Origin: Deltaproteobacteria bacterium
GTDB lineage: Bacteria > Desulfobacterota > DSM-4660 > Desulfatiglandales > HGW-15
DNA length: 6,078 nt
Reading direction: 5' to 3'
NCBI GenBank assembly: GCA_016932235.1
Contig: JAFGDF010000177.1
Span: 1 to 6,078 of the forward strand
In this document: positions 1 to 6,078 of the stretch, one piece after another
Numbering within the stretch: position 1 is the first letter of the stretch
Layout of the letters: each line of letters starts with the position of its first letter
Made by a program: the position numbers and the translations under genes
Notes under the pieces: generated by a model
Told to the model about the DNA's origin: nothing
The model's input: only the letters and a program-made list of their open reading frames with translations
The model's database searches: none

Positions 1-31
1 CTATTCTGTCGGCCATTCCAATGATAACCAT
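1..31 (-). CDS. Possible start of a divergent leftward gene, cut by the window edge
   Basis: On the minus strand an ATG at 31-29 opens a frame that stays open to the window edge and reads MVIIGMADRI. It lies about 32 nt downstream of the expected start point of the strong leftward promoter at 99-70, which is the main reason to list it. The same frame has a stop just upstream (TGA of the TGATCA at about 54-59), so the ATG is the only reasonable start seen here. The Shine-Dalgarno sequence is poor (only GAAG close to the ATG). Ten codons are too few to name a product, and the leftward transcript could equally be non-coding or start its gene beyond the edge. Confidence 0.25.
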   Translation of the reverse strand, partial: MVIIGMADRI

Positions 32-69
32 TTCTTCAAGCCGATATCTATTTGATCAGAAAATGATTA

Positions 70-99
70 ATTATAAGAGTGTGCGGGTTTGTATGTCAA
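70..99 (-). promoter_or_regulatory. Consensus sigma70-type promoter, leftward
   Basis: On the minus strand the -35 box TTGACA (99-94) and the -10 box TATAAT (75-70) both match the housekeeping consensus perfectly and are separated by 18 bp. Transcription would start near 64-62 and run off the left edge. A perfect match in both boxes at near-ideal spacing is unlikely by chance even in AT-rich DNA. The promoter makes this a divergent intergenic region, with an unknown leftward gene back to back with the hdr operon. Confidence 0.65.
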
Positions 100-205
100 A
101 GAAAAAAGAGCCATTTATAATGTAAATGAATCCATATTTGTATAAAATTAGTATTAAAATAACAAGTTGTATGAAAATACAGGAAGATGGATGGACGGCA
201 CGGGC

Positions 206-234
206 TTGACACAACGGGTCAATTCCAATATCCT
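206..234 (+). promoter_or_regulatory. Predicted hdrA operon promoter with an inverted repeat over the -35 box
   Basis: A perfect -35 box TTGACA (206-211) is followed after 17 bp by TATCCT (229-234), a four-of-six match to the -10 consensus. Transcription would begin near 241 and leave a leader of about 105 nt before the hdrA ATG. The -35 box is also the left arm of an inverted repeat, TTGAC (206-210) with GTCAA (218-222), seven bases apart. A regulator bound there would cover the -35 region and spacer, so it could act as an operator. The spacing does not fit FNR/CRP sites (four-base gap), and I do not recognise the regulator. Confidence 0.5.
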
Positions 235-235
235 T

Positions 236-308
236 TTAAGTGTGATAATAATTAATTTTGATGACATTTGAGGAACTTTATATTTTAAAACGTTTTCAGC
301 ACACTTAA
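236..308. repeat. 9-bp inverted repeat spanning the hdrA leader
   Basis: TTAAGTGTG (236-244) and CACACTTAA (300-308) are perfect reverse complements separated by 55 nt of very AT-rich sequence. A G-U pair (235/309) and a T-A pair (234/310) extend the arms slightly. The left arm overlaps the predicted transcription start near 241, so the pair may be a DNA-level site (two half-sites or a looping pair) rather than an RNA stem. If transcription starts further upstream, it could fold in the leader and lies 38 nt before the start codon. Function unknown. Confidence 0.4.
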
Positions 309-345
309 GAAATACGAAATATATCTTCGAGCACTGGAGCAGCAT

Positions 346-3300
346 ATGTCTGAAAAAAGCGTTGGTGCAGTAATGGTCGTCGGAGGCGGTATAGCGGGAA
401 TGCAGGCATCCCTTGATCTTGCCGGCTCCGGGTATCTGGTTCATCTGGTAGAGTCATCATCCGCCATAGGCGGTGTGATGAGTGAGCTGGATAAGACATT
501 CCCCACTAATGATTGCGCCATGTGAATTATCTCTCCCAAACTGGTCGAGGTCGGCCGGCACCTGAATATCAACATCCTGACCTGTTCTCAGATCAGGGAG
601 GTTGAAGGCGTTAAAGGTAATTTCAAGGTAAGGATCGAAAAAAAACCCCGTTTCATTGATGAATCACGGTGTACCGCCTGTGGTGACTGCGTGGATGTCT
701 GCCCCATATCGTTGCCGGACAGTTATGATCAGGGAATGAAAAACAGAAAGGCGGTTTTTAAAAAATATCCCCAGGCCATTCCGGGGGCCTTTTCAATCAC
801 TAAGAGAGGAGTCTCACCATGCAAGGCCGCCTGTCCCGCCCATATAAGTGTCCAGGGATATGTAGCTCTTGCAGGGCAGGGCAGGTTCCGGGAGGCCCTT
901 GAACTGATTAAGGAAGAAAATCCGCTTCCGGCAATATGCGGAAGGGTATGCCATCATCCATGTGAATCCGCCTGCAGCCGGGGAAAGATTGACGAACCTG
1001 TCGCCATTGATTTTATCAAGCGTTTTATCGCTGATATGGACCTTGCATCGGAATCCCGTTATATCCCTGAGAAGAGACCAAAAAAGGCTGAAAAGATCGC
1101 GGTTATAGGTTCAGGTCCGGCAGGCCTATCGTGTTCCTACTATCTCGCAAGGGAGGGCTACGGCGTAACCATCTATGAAAAACTGCCCGTAGCCGGGGGT
1201 ATGCTGACGGTGGGAATACCTGAGTATCGTCTGCCGAAGAATATTATTGAGGCGGAAATCGGCATTATCAAGGAGATGGGAGTGGAGGTTATTACCGGAG
1301 TTGAGGTGGGAAGGGATATAACGATCGATCAACTCCGAAAACAGGGATATGGAGCGATTTTTTTGGGTATCGGTTCACATTTATGCAGGATGATGGGGGT
1401 AGAGGGGGAGGGGTTGGCCGGTGTCTTTTCAGGCATTGACCTGTTGAGGGATATAAATCTCGGTAAGAATATAAAGCTCGGGGATCGCATCGCGGTTGTC
1501 GGCGGAGGAAATGTGGCCATGGACGCTGTCCGGTCCGTCCGGAGACTCGGTTCAACGGAACCCTTCATCATCTATCGCAGGGGCCGGGATGAGATGCCCG
1601 CGAATATCGAAGAGATAGAAGAATGCGAGGAAGAGGGTATTGAGATCATGACCCTGACAAATCCGGTTCGCATTATTGGTGAGAATGGCGCTGTTAAGGC
1701 CATCGAATGTGTTAGGATGTCCCTTGGAGAACCTGATAAGAGCGGACGGCGCAGACCTGAACCTGTTCCGGGTTCTGAATTTGTATTGGATGTGGATGGC
1801 GTTGTCCAGGCAATCGGCCAGGAAACGGATTGGTCCTGTCTTGGCCCTGAATGTGAGTGTGTTATTAATGACCGGGGAACTCTGAATGTTGATCTTCTTA
1901 CTCTTCAAACCGATGACCCTGATATATTCGCGGGCGGAGATGCCGTGACAGGTCCAAAGACCGTTATTGAGGCTATTGAGGCCGGGAAACAGGCCGCAGC
2001 TTCTATTGATCGATTTATTCGCGGGGTTGATCTGAAGGCCGGTCGTGAGAGGCATTTAGAGGCCGTTCAGGAGATACCCGCGGGAGATTATGAAAAAAAA
2101 CCAAGGGAACGGATGCCAAGATTAGCCCCCCGGGATCGACTGGACAACTTCCGTGAAGTGCAACTGGGCTTTGATGAAAGCCAAACCCTGAAGGAAGCGG
2201 GGAGATGTGTTGAGTGCGGTGTCTGCTCTGAATGCTATCAGTGTGTGAAGGTCTGCAAGGCTGGGGCCGTGACGCTTGAAAGTCATGAACAGGAAAGGGA
2301 AATCATTGAACTGAATGTGGGTTCTATTATTTTGGCCCCGGGATTCAAACCTTTTGATCCTTCTTTGTATAAAGAATACGGATACATTGAGCACCCCGAT
2401 GTGGTAACCTCAATGGAGTTTGAAAGGATCCTATCCGCGTCGGGGCCTACCTCCGGCCATCTGGTCCGTCCGTCAGACGGAAAGGAACCGAAAAAAATAG
2501 CCTGGCTCCAGTGTATCGGGTCAAGGGATTTTCATAAATGCGATCACGGATATTGTTCCTCGGTCTGTTGCATGTACGCGGTCAAGGAGGCTGTTATCGC
2601 AAAGGAACATGCCGGAACGGGCCTGGATTGCGCTGTTTTTTTCATGGACATGAGAACACACGGAAAGGATTTTGAGAGATATTACCAGGACGCAAAGGAA
2701 AAGCACGGTGTGCGTTTTATCCGTTCGAGGGTCCCTTTCATTGAATCCGTTAAAGGAAGTGAAGGGCTCCTGATCCCCTATGTGAATGAAGACGGAAGCC
2801 TTGCCCGGGAATATTTTGATATGGCTGTTCTTTCCGTGGGCATGGAAACACCTCCGGAAACAGTGGAACTTGCGCGAAACCTCGGTATTAAACTTACAGA
2901 GGGAAAATTTTGTGACACCGGATCGTTCCATCCTGTCACGTCTTCGGTAGACGGGATATATGTATGTGGAGCGTTCCAGGGACCAAAAGATATTCCCCAG
3001 TCTGTTATTGAGGCCGGGTCAGCGGCCGCAGAATCCGGGGCGCTCCTGCGCGAAGCCAGGGGTACGCTGACCGTGGAAAAGGAACCCCCAACAGAGATAG
3101 ATATATCGGGCCAGAGGCCCCGTATCGGTGTTTTTGTATGCCGGTGCGGCATAAACATAAGCGCCGTGGTGGATATTGAAGCGGTTCGGGATTATGCGGC
3201 AACACTTCCTTATGTCGAGTTTGTAACGGATAATCTGTATACCTGCTCCCAGGACACTCAGGAAGCAATGACCAGGGTAATCAGAGAGAAAAAGTTGAAC

Positions 3301-4782
3301 CGTATCGTCGTTGCCGCCTGCACGCCGAAAACACATGAGCCCCTGTTCCAGGAAACACTGGTTAATGCGGGCATCAATAAGTATCTGGTTGAGATGACAA
3401 ACATTCGAAATCAGGACTCCTGGGTCCATAGAGGTGAACCGGCCAGGGCCACAGATAAGGCAATGGACCTGGTTCGTATGGCGGTCGTAAAGGTTGCCCT
3501 CACGGAACCCCTCACAGAATTTGAGGTGAATATCAATAAAAACGCCCTTGTCATAGGTGGTGGAATAGCCGGAATGGCCGCGGCAATGAACCTTTCCAGG
3601 CAAGGCTACAGGACACATCTGGTTGAACGGGCCCCGGCCCTTGGCGGACAGGGCCTTAATCTTTTCAGGACCTGGAAGGGTGAGAATGTCCGGGAAAACC
3701 TTTTCGAAATGATAAGAGAGGTGGAATCAGATAATAATATCTCGGTTTATCTGGATTCAGAGCTGATAGATTCCAAAGGATTTGTGGGAAATTTTAAAAC
3801 AATTCTGGAGACCGGAGGAAACAGAAGACAGATCGAACATGGTGTTACCATAATCGCTACAGGTGCCCATGAATTCAGGCCAAAGGAATATCTTCTTGAT
3901 GAAGATGAAAGGGTGATTACCCACATTGATCTGGATAAAAGGTTTATGGAACAGGATCCTTCATTGAAGGAGATCAAAACAGCCGTATTTGTCCAGTGTG
4001 CAGGATCCAGGGAACCGGACAGACCGTACTGTTCAAGACTATGTTGCACACATTCCATTGAAAGCGCTCTTCACCTTAAGGAGATTAATCCTGATATGCG
4101 GGTATATATCCTTTACAGGGACATCAGGACCTATGGGGAGAGGGAGTATCTTTACAGAAAGGCCAGACTGGCAGGCATAATCTTTATACGCTTTTCCCAG
4201 GACAGCAAACCCGTAATATCATCAGAGGAGGACGGCCTTATAATCTGGACTGTGGATACTGTTCTCGATGATAGGATATCAATAAGAACCGATCTACTTG
4301 TTCTGGCGACGGCCATTATTCCCAACCAGAATGAAAAAATCGCTCAGATGTTTAAGCTTCCGGTGAATGAGGATGGGTTCTTCATCGAGGCGCACGCAAA
4401 GCTTGGCCCGTCGGAATTTGCAGTTGACGGTGTTTTTCTCTGCGGAATGGCCCATTATCCCAAATCCATTGATGAATCCATATCACAGGCCCTTGCAGCC
4501 GCTTCCAGGGCGGTCACCTTGCTTTCCCGTGATAGTATAACCACAGGCGGAGTGGTTGCCTCAGTCAACAGGGGAATCTGCAGCAATTGCGGTGTATGTG
4601 TTGACATATGCCCCTACTCGGCTATCTCAATGGTTGAAAAGGATGTTACAGGTGAAAAAGCGGAAGTAAATCCGATACTCTGTAAGGGATGCGGACTATG
4701 TGTTGCTTCCTGCCGTTCAGGGGCGGTTAATCTTAAAGGATTCGGAGAAAATCAGATCATGGCGATGATAAACGAGGTGTAA
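346..4782 (+). CDS. hdrA: Selenocysteine-containing HdrA, tandem HdrA fused with a GltD-like module
   Basis: Heterodisulfide-reductase subunit A-like iron-sulfur flavoprotein of 1478 residues, read through an in-frame TGA (Sec60). The ATG at 346 has GGAG at 336-339. Everything before 691 also reads as conserved HdrA, so the internal GTG at 691 is not the start. Domains in order: FAD-binding GGGIAG (13-18); CxxU motif C57/Sec60; [4Fe-4S] motif C109/112/115/119; GltD/NfnB-like module about 158-560 with cysteines 159, 163, 198, 202, 206 and 210, FAD motif GSGPAG (255-260) and NAD(P) motif GGGNVAMD (386-393); cysteine cluster 621/624/627/630/633/637; rest of the first HdrA FAD domain to about 910. 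A second HdrA follows: N-terminal domain with CRC (932-934), FAD motif GGGIAG (1071-1076), and two C-terminal [4Fe-4S] motifs (C1412/1415/1418/1422 and C1446/1449/1452/1456). Expected cytoplasmic, in a complex with HdrC and HdrB encoded downstream. Flavin-based electron bifurcation and NAD(P)H use are inferred from the families. Confidence 0.9.
523..525 (+). other. In-frame TGA selenocysteine codon (Sec60 of HdrA)
   Basis: This TGA is the only stop in 1478 sense codons of the 346 frame. Upstream the protein reads TFPTNDCAM and downstream IISPKLVEVGRH, both strongly HdrA-like, and homologues have cysteine at the interrupted position. The result is a CxxU motif (C57-A-M-Sec60) in place of CxxC. 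Reading TGA as Trp or Gly through an altered genetic code is unlikely, because such genomes scatter TGA through genes and hdrC and the visible part of hdrB have none in frame. A selenoprotein HdrA is known from Methanococcales and has been reported in some Deltaproteobacteria. Function would need selA, selB, selC and selD elsewhere in the genome. Confidence 0.88.
541..558 (+). promoter_or_regulatory. Predicted bacterial SECIS hairpin in hdrA
   Basis: CTGGTCG (541-547) pairs over seven bases with CGGCCGG (552-558), five Watson-Crick and two G-U pairs, closing a four-base AGGT loop (548-551). The stem starts 15 nt and the loop 22 nt after the TGA, and a G stands at the second loop position. These fit the usual bacterial SECIS rules (loop about 16-37 nt from UGA, G in the first two loop bases). 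The hairpin would bind SelB with charged tRNA-Sec during translation. The same bases encode LVEVGR, part of the conserved HdrA sequence, so the segment serves both as code and as RNA signal. Confidence 0.75.
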
Positions 4783-4786
4783 AGAG

Positions 4787-4814
4787 GGTTCAGGGCGCAG
4801 GGCTCAAGGCGAAG
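4787..4814 (+). repeat. Four degenerate G-rich heptamer repeats
   Basis: Starting four bases after the hdrA stop codon, the sequence reads GGTTCAG, GGCGCAG, GGCTCAA, GGCGAAG, that is four head-to-tail heptamers of the form GGYKMAR. A fifth, more diverged unit may follow (4815-4821). It is non-coding and G-rich on the + strand. Heptamer tracts of this kind look like decayed microsatellites. No function can be assigned. Confidence 0.45.
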
Positions 4815-4866
4815 GAAGGGAGAAGCTAATTATTAAGGGTGTCCAAATAGAATAAACATAAAGTCC

Positions 4867-4895
4867 CTGGATTCCGGGTCAAGCCCGGAATGACG
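4867..4895 (+). repeat. REP-like palindromic repeat, copy 1
   Basis: This element begins CTGGA and ends TGACG. Its core is a perfect 8-bp stem, ATTCCGGG (4871-4878) with CCCGGAAT (4884-4891), around the loop TCAAG. It belongs to a dispersed palindrome type common between genes of proteobacteria (CTGGATTCCGGG...CCCGGAATGACG). No T-run follows the stem, so it does not look like an intrinsic terminator, but in the transcript it could slow polymerase or protect the hdrA message from 3' decay. Confidence 0.7.
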
Positions 4896-4915
4896 AGATG
4901 CATTTACTCCCAATC

Positions 4916-4943
4916 CGTCACCCCGGCGAAGGCCGGGGTACAG
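4916..4943 (-). repeat. REP-like palindromic repeat, copy 2, inverted
   Basis: Read on the minus strand, this begins CTGTA and ends TGACG, matching the ends of copy 1 (CTGGA...TGACG) in opposite orientation. Its core is a perfect 8-bp stem, ACCCCGGC (4920-4927) with GCCGGGGT (4932-4939), around GAAG. The loop and stem bases differ from copy 1, but stem length and flanks agree, so it is a diverged member of the same family. The two copies face each other over a 20-nt spacer, an arrangement like BIME/REP pairs that are moved by RAYT-type transposases encoded elsewhere. Confidence 0.65.
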
Positions 4944-5023
4944 AAAAATACACTTTTAGGCAACCATGATGTCAATTCAATTATGAGACTGGCAATAACA
5001 GGAAATTACTGAAGGAGGAGTAA

Positions 5024-5494
5024 GTGGAAGAGATAGATCTGGAAAAAACGGATCCGGCTTTTTTAAAAGAGCTTTTTGAACAGCCGGGAGGGGAGAGGAT
5101 CTCCGCGTGTTTTACATGCCGCACCTGTGTGGCGAGCTGTCCCATAACCGCTGTAAATGACCGGTTTAATCCGTTGCGTATCATCAGAATGGCCTTATAT
5201 GGATTGAAAAATGAAGTCTTAAGCAGTCCTTTTATCTGGCTTTGTTCGAGTTGCTATGCGTGTCAGGAGAGATGTCCACAGGGTGTGGATATTACGGAAT
5301 TCATGACTTTGTTGAAAAATATGGCGGTAATATCGGGTTATGTGCCGTCCGGTGTTAAGGCACAGAAGGAAATGATAACCGGAGATGGCCGTGTATATCC
5401 GATAGATGAATTTGATAACAAGAAAAGGAACAAGATAGGATTGCCATCACTCCCCACATCATGTGAAGTGGTTAGGCTGCTTTTCCCGGATTAA
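5024..5494 (+). CDS. hdrC: HdrC-like iron-sulfur subunit of heterodisulfide reductase
   Basis: A 156-residue electron-transfer protein with two ferredoxin-type [4Fe-4S] motifs: C29/C32/C35/C39 (CFTCRTCVASCP) and C74/C77/C80/C84 (CSSCYACQERCP). The spacing, the conserved NPLRIIRMALYG stretch between them and the size are typical of HdrC. In the known HdrABC complexes HdrC relays electrons between the HdrA clusters and HdrB. No signal peptide or membrane segment is visible, so it should be cytoplasmic. The GTG start at 5024 is chosen because AAGGAGG (5012-5018) stands five bases before it and an in-frame TAA directly precedes it. It lies 241 bp after hdrA, across the REP pair, and 63 bp before hdrB. 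The strong Shine-Dalgarno site suggests efficient independent translation. Confidence 0.92.
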   Translation: MEEIDLEKTDPAFLKELFEQPGGERISACFTCRTCVASCPITAVNDRFNPLRIIRMALYGLKNEVLSSPFIWLCSSCYACQERCPQGVDITEFMTLLKNMAVISGYVPSGVKAQKEMITGDGRVYPIDEFDNKKRNKIGLPSLPTSCEVVRLLFPD

Positions 5495-5525
5495 AGATCC
5501 TGGATGAAGATTAAAGGAATTTACA

Positions 5526-5552
5526 ATGGCTAATAATCGTTTAAGGGGATAG
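5526..5552 (+). other. Eight-codon mini-ORF in front of hdrB, possible translational coupler
   Basis: ATG at 5526 starts a reading frame MANNRLRG ending at TAG 5550-5552, five bases before the hdrB GTG. It has a credible Shine-Dalgarno sequence of its own (AAAGGA, 5513-5518, seven bases before the ATG), and its last codons overlap the AAGGGG that would serve hdrB. Ribosomes finishing here could reinitiate on hdrB. The peptide has no recognisable features, and such short frames also arise by chance. Confidence 0.22.
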
Positions 5553-5557
5553 ATATC

Positions 5558-6078
5558 GTGGAAAGTATCATGCGTTACGCCCTGTTCCTTGGATGCACCA
5601 TTCCGGCCCGCGCAAGGAACTATGAACTCTCAGCAAGAAAAGTGGCTGAAAAGATAGGCATCGAACTTGTGGATGTAAACGAGTTCATATGCTGCGGGTT
5701 TCCCGTAAAGAGCGGAGATATCCTTTCCGCAACGGTATTGGGTGCCTATAACCTTGCCTTGGCACGACAGAAAGATCTGGACCTGTGCGCCCTGTGCAGC
5801 TCATGCTCGTCGGCCTTAACGGAAACGGATCATCACCTTTCAGAAGACAGGACATTGAGAAAGGAAGTTAATGATAGGCTTGCCTCTGTTAACCTGAAGC
5901 TTGAAGGGAAAACAAAGGTAAGGCATTTTGCCAGGATTCTGTATGAAGAGATCGGGCTCGATTCCATCAGGAAACATTTGCAAAGGGACCTGGGAGGTCT
6001 TCGTATCGCAATCCATTATGGGTGCCATTATCTGAAACCTTCACGGATATATGATCATTTCGACGACCCCGAAGCCCC
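5558..6078 (+). CDS. hdrB: HdrB-like CCG-domain subunit, 3' end beyond the window
   Basis: Open to the window end, with 173 complete codons visible of a protein that is usually about 290-300 residues. It shows the first complete CCG signature: C13 in FLGCTIPARARNYELSARKV, the CC pair 45-46 in CCGFPV, and C80/C83 in LCSSCSSAL. The second signature opens at C156 (HYGCHYLKPS). In HdrB of methanogens these domains hold two non-cubane [4Fe-4S] clusters that cleave the CoM-S-S-CoB disulfide. The bacterial substrate is not known from sequence. The GTG at 5558 is preferred because AAGGGG (5543-5548) lies nine bases upstream. An in-frame ATG at 5570 giving MRYALFLGC is the alternative and matches the usual HdrB N-terminus, but has only a weak ribosome site. 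Co-transcription with hdrC is likely from the 63-bp spacing. Confidence 0.92.
   Translation, partial: MESIMRYALFLGCTIPARARNYELSARKVAEKIGIELVDVNEFICCGFPVKSGDILSATVLGAYNLALARQKDLDLCALCSSCSSALTETDHHLSEDRTLRKEVNDRLASVNLKLEGKTKVRHFARILYEEIGLDSIRKHLQRDLGGLRIAIHYGCHYLKPSRIYDHFDDPEA

Follow-up and report, generated by a model that had tools for sequence, protein, structure and literature searches.

A UGA codon with a near-invariant downstream hairpin very probably encodes selenocysteine in a deltaproteobacterial HdrA/GltD-like/HdrA fusion

Comparative sequence analysis leaves little doubt that the UGA at 523-525 of the DNA studied here is decoded as selenocysteine (Sec60), and that the gene carrying it encodes a 1,478-residue selenoprotein. 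The window, as we call the whole analysed stretch, comprises positions 1..6,078 of the forward strand of contig JAFGDF010000177.1 (GCA_016932235.1), assigned to a Deltaproteobacteria bacterium and 6,078 nucleotides long. On its + strand, the complete selenoprotein frame (346..4782, 1478 codons) comprises an HdrA copy with a GltD/NfnB-like insert, followed by a second HdrA copy. It runs from ATG 346-348 to TAA 4780-4782, and its sole interruption is the TGA at codon 60, in the context TFPTNDCAM*IISPK. A ribosome-binding site, read from the sequence as GGAG at 336..339, lies 6 nt ahead of the ATG. The longest table-11 ORF spans GTG 691-4782 and yields 1,363 aa; as this ORF begins at codon 116 (691..693, the start expected from table-11 calling), 115 residues (346..690) are lost. 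Among them are the GGGIAGM FAD motif, C57 and residue 60 of the CxxU motif, and C109, C112 and C115, three of the four cysteines of the first [4Fe-4S] motif, of which C119 is retained. The hidden N-terminus is recognizably HdrA: residues 1-160 matched solved HdrA chains with E-values down to 1.6e-53, and adding codons 1-115 raised the score of the NCBIfam HdrA2 model (NF040770) from 761.7 to 925.5 bits. The latter score, distributed over 4 stretches, stays below the cut-off of 1100 bits of this model, which describes an unfused HdrA. A first-pass annotation of the same DNA had proposed an HdrA frame reaching upstream of GTG 691 to an ATG with a ribosome site and broken by TGA 523 alone, as well as a 115-residue truncation that removes the FAD motif, the CxxU motif and most of the first [4Fe-4S] motif from any product starting at 691, and in all these points it proved accurate. 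It had mentioned neither the hairpin at 541-558 nor the GltD-like insert nor the second HdrA copy. In metagenomes, gene calling of this kind conceals the end of Sec-HdrA proteins at which FAD and the cluster are bound.

To place codon 60 in an evolutionary context, genome contigs were scanned with six peptide patterns, yielding 131 relatives, of which 80 loci were kept. Codon 60 could be read in 75 of these 80 loci and was TGA in 27, TGC in 26 and TGT in 22 (48 Cys codons), with no other codon occurring; the remaining five loci either begin inside the gene (L009, L077) or could not be aligned at codon 60 of copy 1 (L054-L056). Because one of the six patterns requires Cys at codon 60, which biases the scan against TGA, and because only 80 of the 131 relatives were kept, the ratio of TGA to Cys is no census. 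The 27 TGA loci share 52-71% identity with the window in their best segment, and other assemblies, too, contain this TGA together with its hairpin. Cultured relatives are represented by L001 (Desulfosarcina alkanivorans PL12) and L071 (D. widdelii PP31), both with a gene of this type. Among the 120 database proteins listed, out of 7,998 passing matches, 119 carry Cys at position 60, 114 of them as DCxMC and 5 as DCS[ST]C, and one listed protein, P0107, starts just after codon 60, as expected of a truncated Sec gene. This listing is skewed toward Cys, as such databases end proteins at a TGA. An in-frame TGA thus stands opposite the Cys of homologues, the pattern by which bacterial selenoproteins are recognized, and the homologue alignment that the first-pass annotation had named as a test turned out in its favour, with Cys or TGA at position 60 in 75 of 75 covering loci and Cys in 119 of the 120 listed proteins.

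The TGA is followed, 15 nt downstream, by a candidate bacterial SECIS hairpin (541..558, + strand) with a 7 bp stem and the apical loop AGGU at 548-551. We collected the DCxM-TGA/TGY context from the kept loci and the window, which gave 84 sites, 29 with TGA and 55 with Cys. All 29 TGA sites, the window included, carried CTGGTCG-AGKT-CGGCCGG 15 nt past the TGA, where K was G in 23 and T in 6 sites, and the 18-base hairpin was present in 0 of the 55 Cys sites. According to a figure legend in PMC13188914, bacterial SECIS elements have a loop of 3-9 nt, a stem of 4-16 bp, a G in the first two loop positions, a distance of 16-37 nt from the UGA and an MFE <= -7.5; the window hairpin lies within these bounds, having 7 bp, the loop AGGU, a spacing of 22 nt and -10.2 kcal/mol. 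Folded alone, the hairpin was no more stable than its shuffles (z -0.09, -0.53, -0.97 and +1.29), and an Rfam search of the window gave no match up to E = 5. Judging from the comparative genomics, the hairpin would recruit SelB with Sec-tRNA(UCA), allowing the UGA at 523-525 to be translated as Sec60. The earlier assignment of this TGA to Sec60 is supported by both the codon distribution in relatives and the association of hairpin and TGA.

We extended the search to the genomes of 20 relatives, chosen via their HdrA loci and thus not a random sample. The 18-mer occurred 76 times in 17 of the 20 genomes, and a reversed 18-mer used as control occurred 0 times. A TGA was located at the same spacing, 15 nt upstream, in 75 of the 76 cases; the 76th copy starts 5 bases into its contig and is cut by the contig end. 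The 18-base hairpin should hence serve as a simple marker, as every one of the 75 copies that could be read in these 20 genomes was preceded by a TGA. The reverse query, DCxM-TGA, returned 78 places, comprising 72 with the exact hairpin, 4 HdrA variants and 2 non-HdrA stretches, and by eye 3 of the 75 TGA-hairpin places fall outside the DCxM-TGA pattern. Deviation from the exact hairpin was thus confined to 4 of 76 HdrA TGA sites: in L119 a U-G pair is replaced by U-A, in L122 a two-sided change converts C-G to U-A, and L120 and L121 have in common an alternative hairpin with the loop GGUCG. L120 and L121 differ from each other by a two-sided base change within this GGUCG-loop hairpin, which may represent a second SECIS type in the HdrA family. 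The two non-HdrA places, L123 and L124, are DC[WR]M-TGA-YPAP stretches that run into stops. DCxM-TGY was found at 35 places in 18 genomes, some of which did not look like HdrA on visual inspection. One genome, that of locus L050 (G011), holds eleven copies of the 18-mer in a 3.6 Mb assembly, pointing either to many Sec-HdrA paralogues or to a mixed assembly.

The machinery for selenocysteine insertion, whose genes the first-pass annotation had named as a further check, is widespread in these relatives. A tRNA-Sec scored over the cut-off in 17 of the 20 genomes (below it in G005, G010 and G013), selB in 19, the exception being G001, where a contig end leaves a piece of 163 aa, and selA likewise in 19, all but G007. 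At 66-77 bits, the best tRNA-Sec matches of the 17 genomes lay above the cut-off of 47, and the anticodon was TCA in the four tRNA-Sec loci that were read (G011, G012, G015 and G020). Among 14 control genomes, the same cut-offs were passed by 5 for tRNA-Sec, 2 for selB and 1 for selA, and weaker matches were seen in 14, 14 and 4, respectively; the cut-off for tRNA-Sec lacks full specificity. We also considered sel genes as a discriminator of Sec-HdrA and rejected them, because G015, G018 and G020 possess selA, selB and tRNA-Sec but have neither a DCxM-TGA site nor an exact 18-mer.

Selenocysteine insertion had to be weighed against simpler accounts of an in-frame TGA. A stop within the frame is typical of a broken gene, and P0107 begins just behind codon 60, so that the TGA might be a nonsense mutation or a sequencing error in a Cys gene, leaving the locus broken or its product beginning at GTG 691. 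We consider this extremely improbable, given that codon 60 is also TGA in 27 of the 75 covering loci, that the hairpin accompanies it, and that a product begun at 691 would lack the FAD motif. Moreover, the codons ahead of position 116 differ among relatives mainly at third positions: across codons 1-115, differences between the window and four relatives at positions 1/2/3 numbered 18/13/49 for L024, 25/15/60 for L005, 22/10/54 for L004 and 28/10/67 for L001. Since homologues have Cys at this place, a Cys would be functional there, and a tRNA that is reassigned or suppresses opal codons could in principle insert Cys, Trp or Gly at the UGA with no selenium involved. Such a reading is hardly credible, as the three window genes (one partial) contain 1 TGA as compared to 6 TGG, this TGA being the sole site with a hairpin, which reassignment does not need, and as tRNA-Sec, selA and selB occur in most of the 20 relatives, with the TCA anticodon in the four tRNA-Sec loci.

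The constancy of the hairpin might also reflect shared ancestry or gene transfer instead of selection on the RNA. In a quick tree of 84 segments and 143 columns, with 41 of 80 inner branches open, TGA sites indeed cluster: the Sec/Cys label required 6 changes, 2 of them forced by starred branches, as compared to about 24 after shuffling, with 0 of 500 shuffles as low. The window's nearest neighbour among the TGA rows is L024 (77% over 143 columns), a placement without starred support. However, a frozen relic is very unlikely in view of codon usage. When TGA sites were compared pairwise wherever their amino acids agreed, the six hairpin codons showed the identical synonymous choice in 2298 of 2298 cases, whereas elsewhere in these 29 sites, with the two flanking codons left out, codons agreed synonymously in just 4719 of 9290 pairs. 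At the Cys sites, the same six codons agreed in 2239 of 5804 pairs. The divergence of the 27 TGA loci from the window likewise argues against simple inheritance, and so do the four deviant hairpins, two of which keep the pairing, one via a two-sided change, and two of which have another hairpin. Selenocysteine at residue 60, specified by a hairpin under selection, best accounts for these observations.

Beyond the TGA, the predicted protein has an unusual architecture. PDB sequence matches to HdrA covered residues 40-153 and 623-847 and, once more, residues 923-1102 and 1291-1476, and those to GltD/NfnI-type proteins covered residues of about 157-560; this layout puts a GltD-like module inside the first HdrA copy, with another HdrA behind it. 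Accordingly, a GltD/NfnB-like pyridine-nucleotide/FAD module (residues 157-560, 814..2025) interrupts copy 1, which resumes at residues 621-909 (2206..3072), and copy 2 occupies residues 923-1478 (3112..4779), all on the + strand. The FAD motif, CxxC/U, ferredoxin insert, N-terminal Fe-S domain and C-terminal ferredoxin characteristic of HdrA are all present, spread over both copies. The first-pass name hdrA was therefore right as to the HdrA sequence on both sides of the TGA, but the gene is an HdrL-type HdrA/GltD-like/HdrA fusion and not a plain hdrA. Downstream on the same strand lie an HdrC-like protein of 156 aa (5024..5494), scoring 108.4 bits against TIGR03290 and thus under its cut-off of 160, and an HdrB-like protein with a CCG domain (5558..6076), whose 140.5 bits against TIGR03288, under the cut-off of 345.15, come from an ORF cut by the window end. 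Genes resembling hdrC and hdrB are likewise found downstream in L005, L009, L047, L059 and L077, at 63-75% identity. Drawing on homology, we propose that the protein may act as a subunit for flavin-based electron bifurcation or confurcation. Its GltD/NfnB-like module would exchange electrons with NAD(P)H, its two HdrA halves would hold FAD and chains of Fe-S clusters, and the disulfide/thiol arm would be formed by the HdrC- and HdrB-like proteins.

The position of residue 60 suggests a specific role for selenium. Residue 9 corresponds to residue 146 of the 5ODC HdrA and the alignment contains no gaps, so residue 60 (523..525) corresponds to residue 197, a Cys in 5ODC. For archaeal HdrA, the consulted part of PMC9012536 describes Cys197 as ligating the N-terminal Fe-S cluster of the partner HdrA, and fused ANME HdrAs as having the N-terminal domain on one half and Cys197 on the other. 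In the window, copy 1 has residue 60 and lacks the N-terminal Fe-S domain, whereas copy 2 has this domain (C932, C934, C967 and C992) with Asn in place of Cys at the 197 position and no Cys within residues 1060-1130. With Sec60 in copy 1 and the domain in copy 2, the two halves most likely form a pair inside a single chain, where Sec60 of copy 1 would serve as selenolate ligand of the N-terminal [4Fe-4S] cluster of copy 2. On balance, we lean toward a bifurcating enzyme in which, within a single chain, the selenolate of one HdrA half completes the [4Fe-4S] cluster of the other, the input module varies among relatives, and a near-invariant SECIS is shared across HdrA genes. By mapping Sec to a reported trans cluster ligand of HdrA, the analysis offers a specific, testable proposal for the use of selenium at this site. 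Chain A of the solved HdrA structure 9SFI has an X at the position of residue 60, which we take to be Sec, and this structure may already show the Sec binding mode there. Searches of the open-licence literature returned no paper on 9SFI or 9T1S and none on selenocysteine as a ligand in heterodisulfide reductase.

Selenocysteine-containing HdrA is an already known kind of protein. In the available text of PMC1794560 (2006), HdrA is listed as a bacterial selenoprotein family and hdrA_N-unknown-hdrA_C genes are described, in agreement with the first-pass annotation, which had cited reports of Sec-HdrA in some Deltaproteobacteria; Sec-HdrL fusions followed (PMC2702500, 2009), as did Desulfococcus multivorans, whose HdrA dmul_C02770/80 and BamE are among five Sec genes (PMC5109826, 2016). 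Given these reports, as far as consulted, the window gene adds to a known family. By description, it resembles HdrL1/HdrL3 of the sulfate reducer Desulfobacterium autotrophicum HRM2, Sec-containing HdrA/glutamate-synthase fusions (PMC2702500), uniting HdrA and the GltD-like module (residues 157-560) in one protein as an HdrL does. In HRM2, however, mvhD follows hdrL, whereas the window has hdrC-/hdrB-like ORFs up to its end at 6078. With the Sec-HdrA of Deltaproteobacteria in PMC1794560 it shares a bacterial HdrA selenoprotein in tandem or interrupted arrangement, but the glpC-hdrA-frhD-frhG-frhA operons given there differ from the window, which has no frh gene. At the level of called ORFs, it resembles dmul_C02770/80, which is likewise cut in two by a Sec-UGA (PMC5109826). 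Methanogen HdrA (5ODC, 8RVU, 9SFI) matches at residue 60/197, yet is a single HdrA of ~650 aa without a GltD-like insert that forms a two-chain dimer (PMC9012536). From the same source, as far as consulted, the window shares with fused ANME HdrA the splitting of N-terminal domain and Cys197 position between copies, and with the NfnB-bearing HdrA of other ANME groups an NfnB-like module inserted into the ferredoxin domain; unlike these, it unites both features, reverses the order of the halves and has Sec at the ligand position. In the portion of the open-licence literature covered, we found no earlier mention of the near-invariant SECIS or of the mapping of Sec to Cys197.

The region between the two matching HdrA pieces varies in length, measuring 3.2-3.3 kb in L047, L048 and L059 as compared to about 1.5 kb in the window. 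In L059, the only one of these gaps that was domain-searched, it encodes a NuoF-like module with 2Fe-2S and 4Fe-4S domains, and since the pieces of this locus lie in three frames, its modules look like separate ORFs and not one fusion. This locus belongs to NaphS2 (L059:4226-10379), which thus has the window's downstream hdrC-hdrB but carries, in separate ORFs, a NuoF-like module in the place taken by the fused GltD-like module of the window, so that the electron-input module appears to have been exchanged; L047 and L048 show the longer spacing as well. Finally, a pair of short GC-rich palindromes recognized by eye, attccgggt/gcccggaat and ccccggc/gccgggg, lies at positions 4871-4940 of the window, in the spacer that separates the fusion gene from the hdrC-like ORF.
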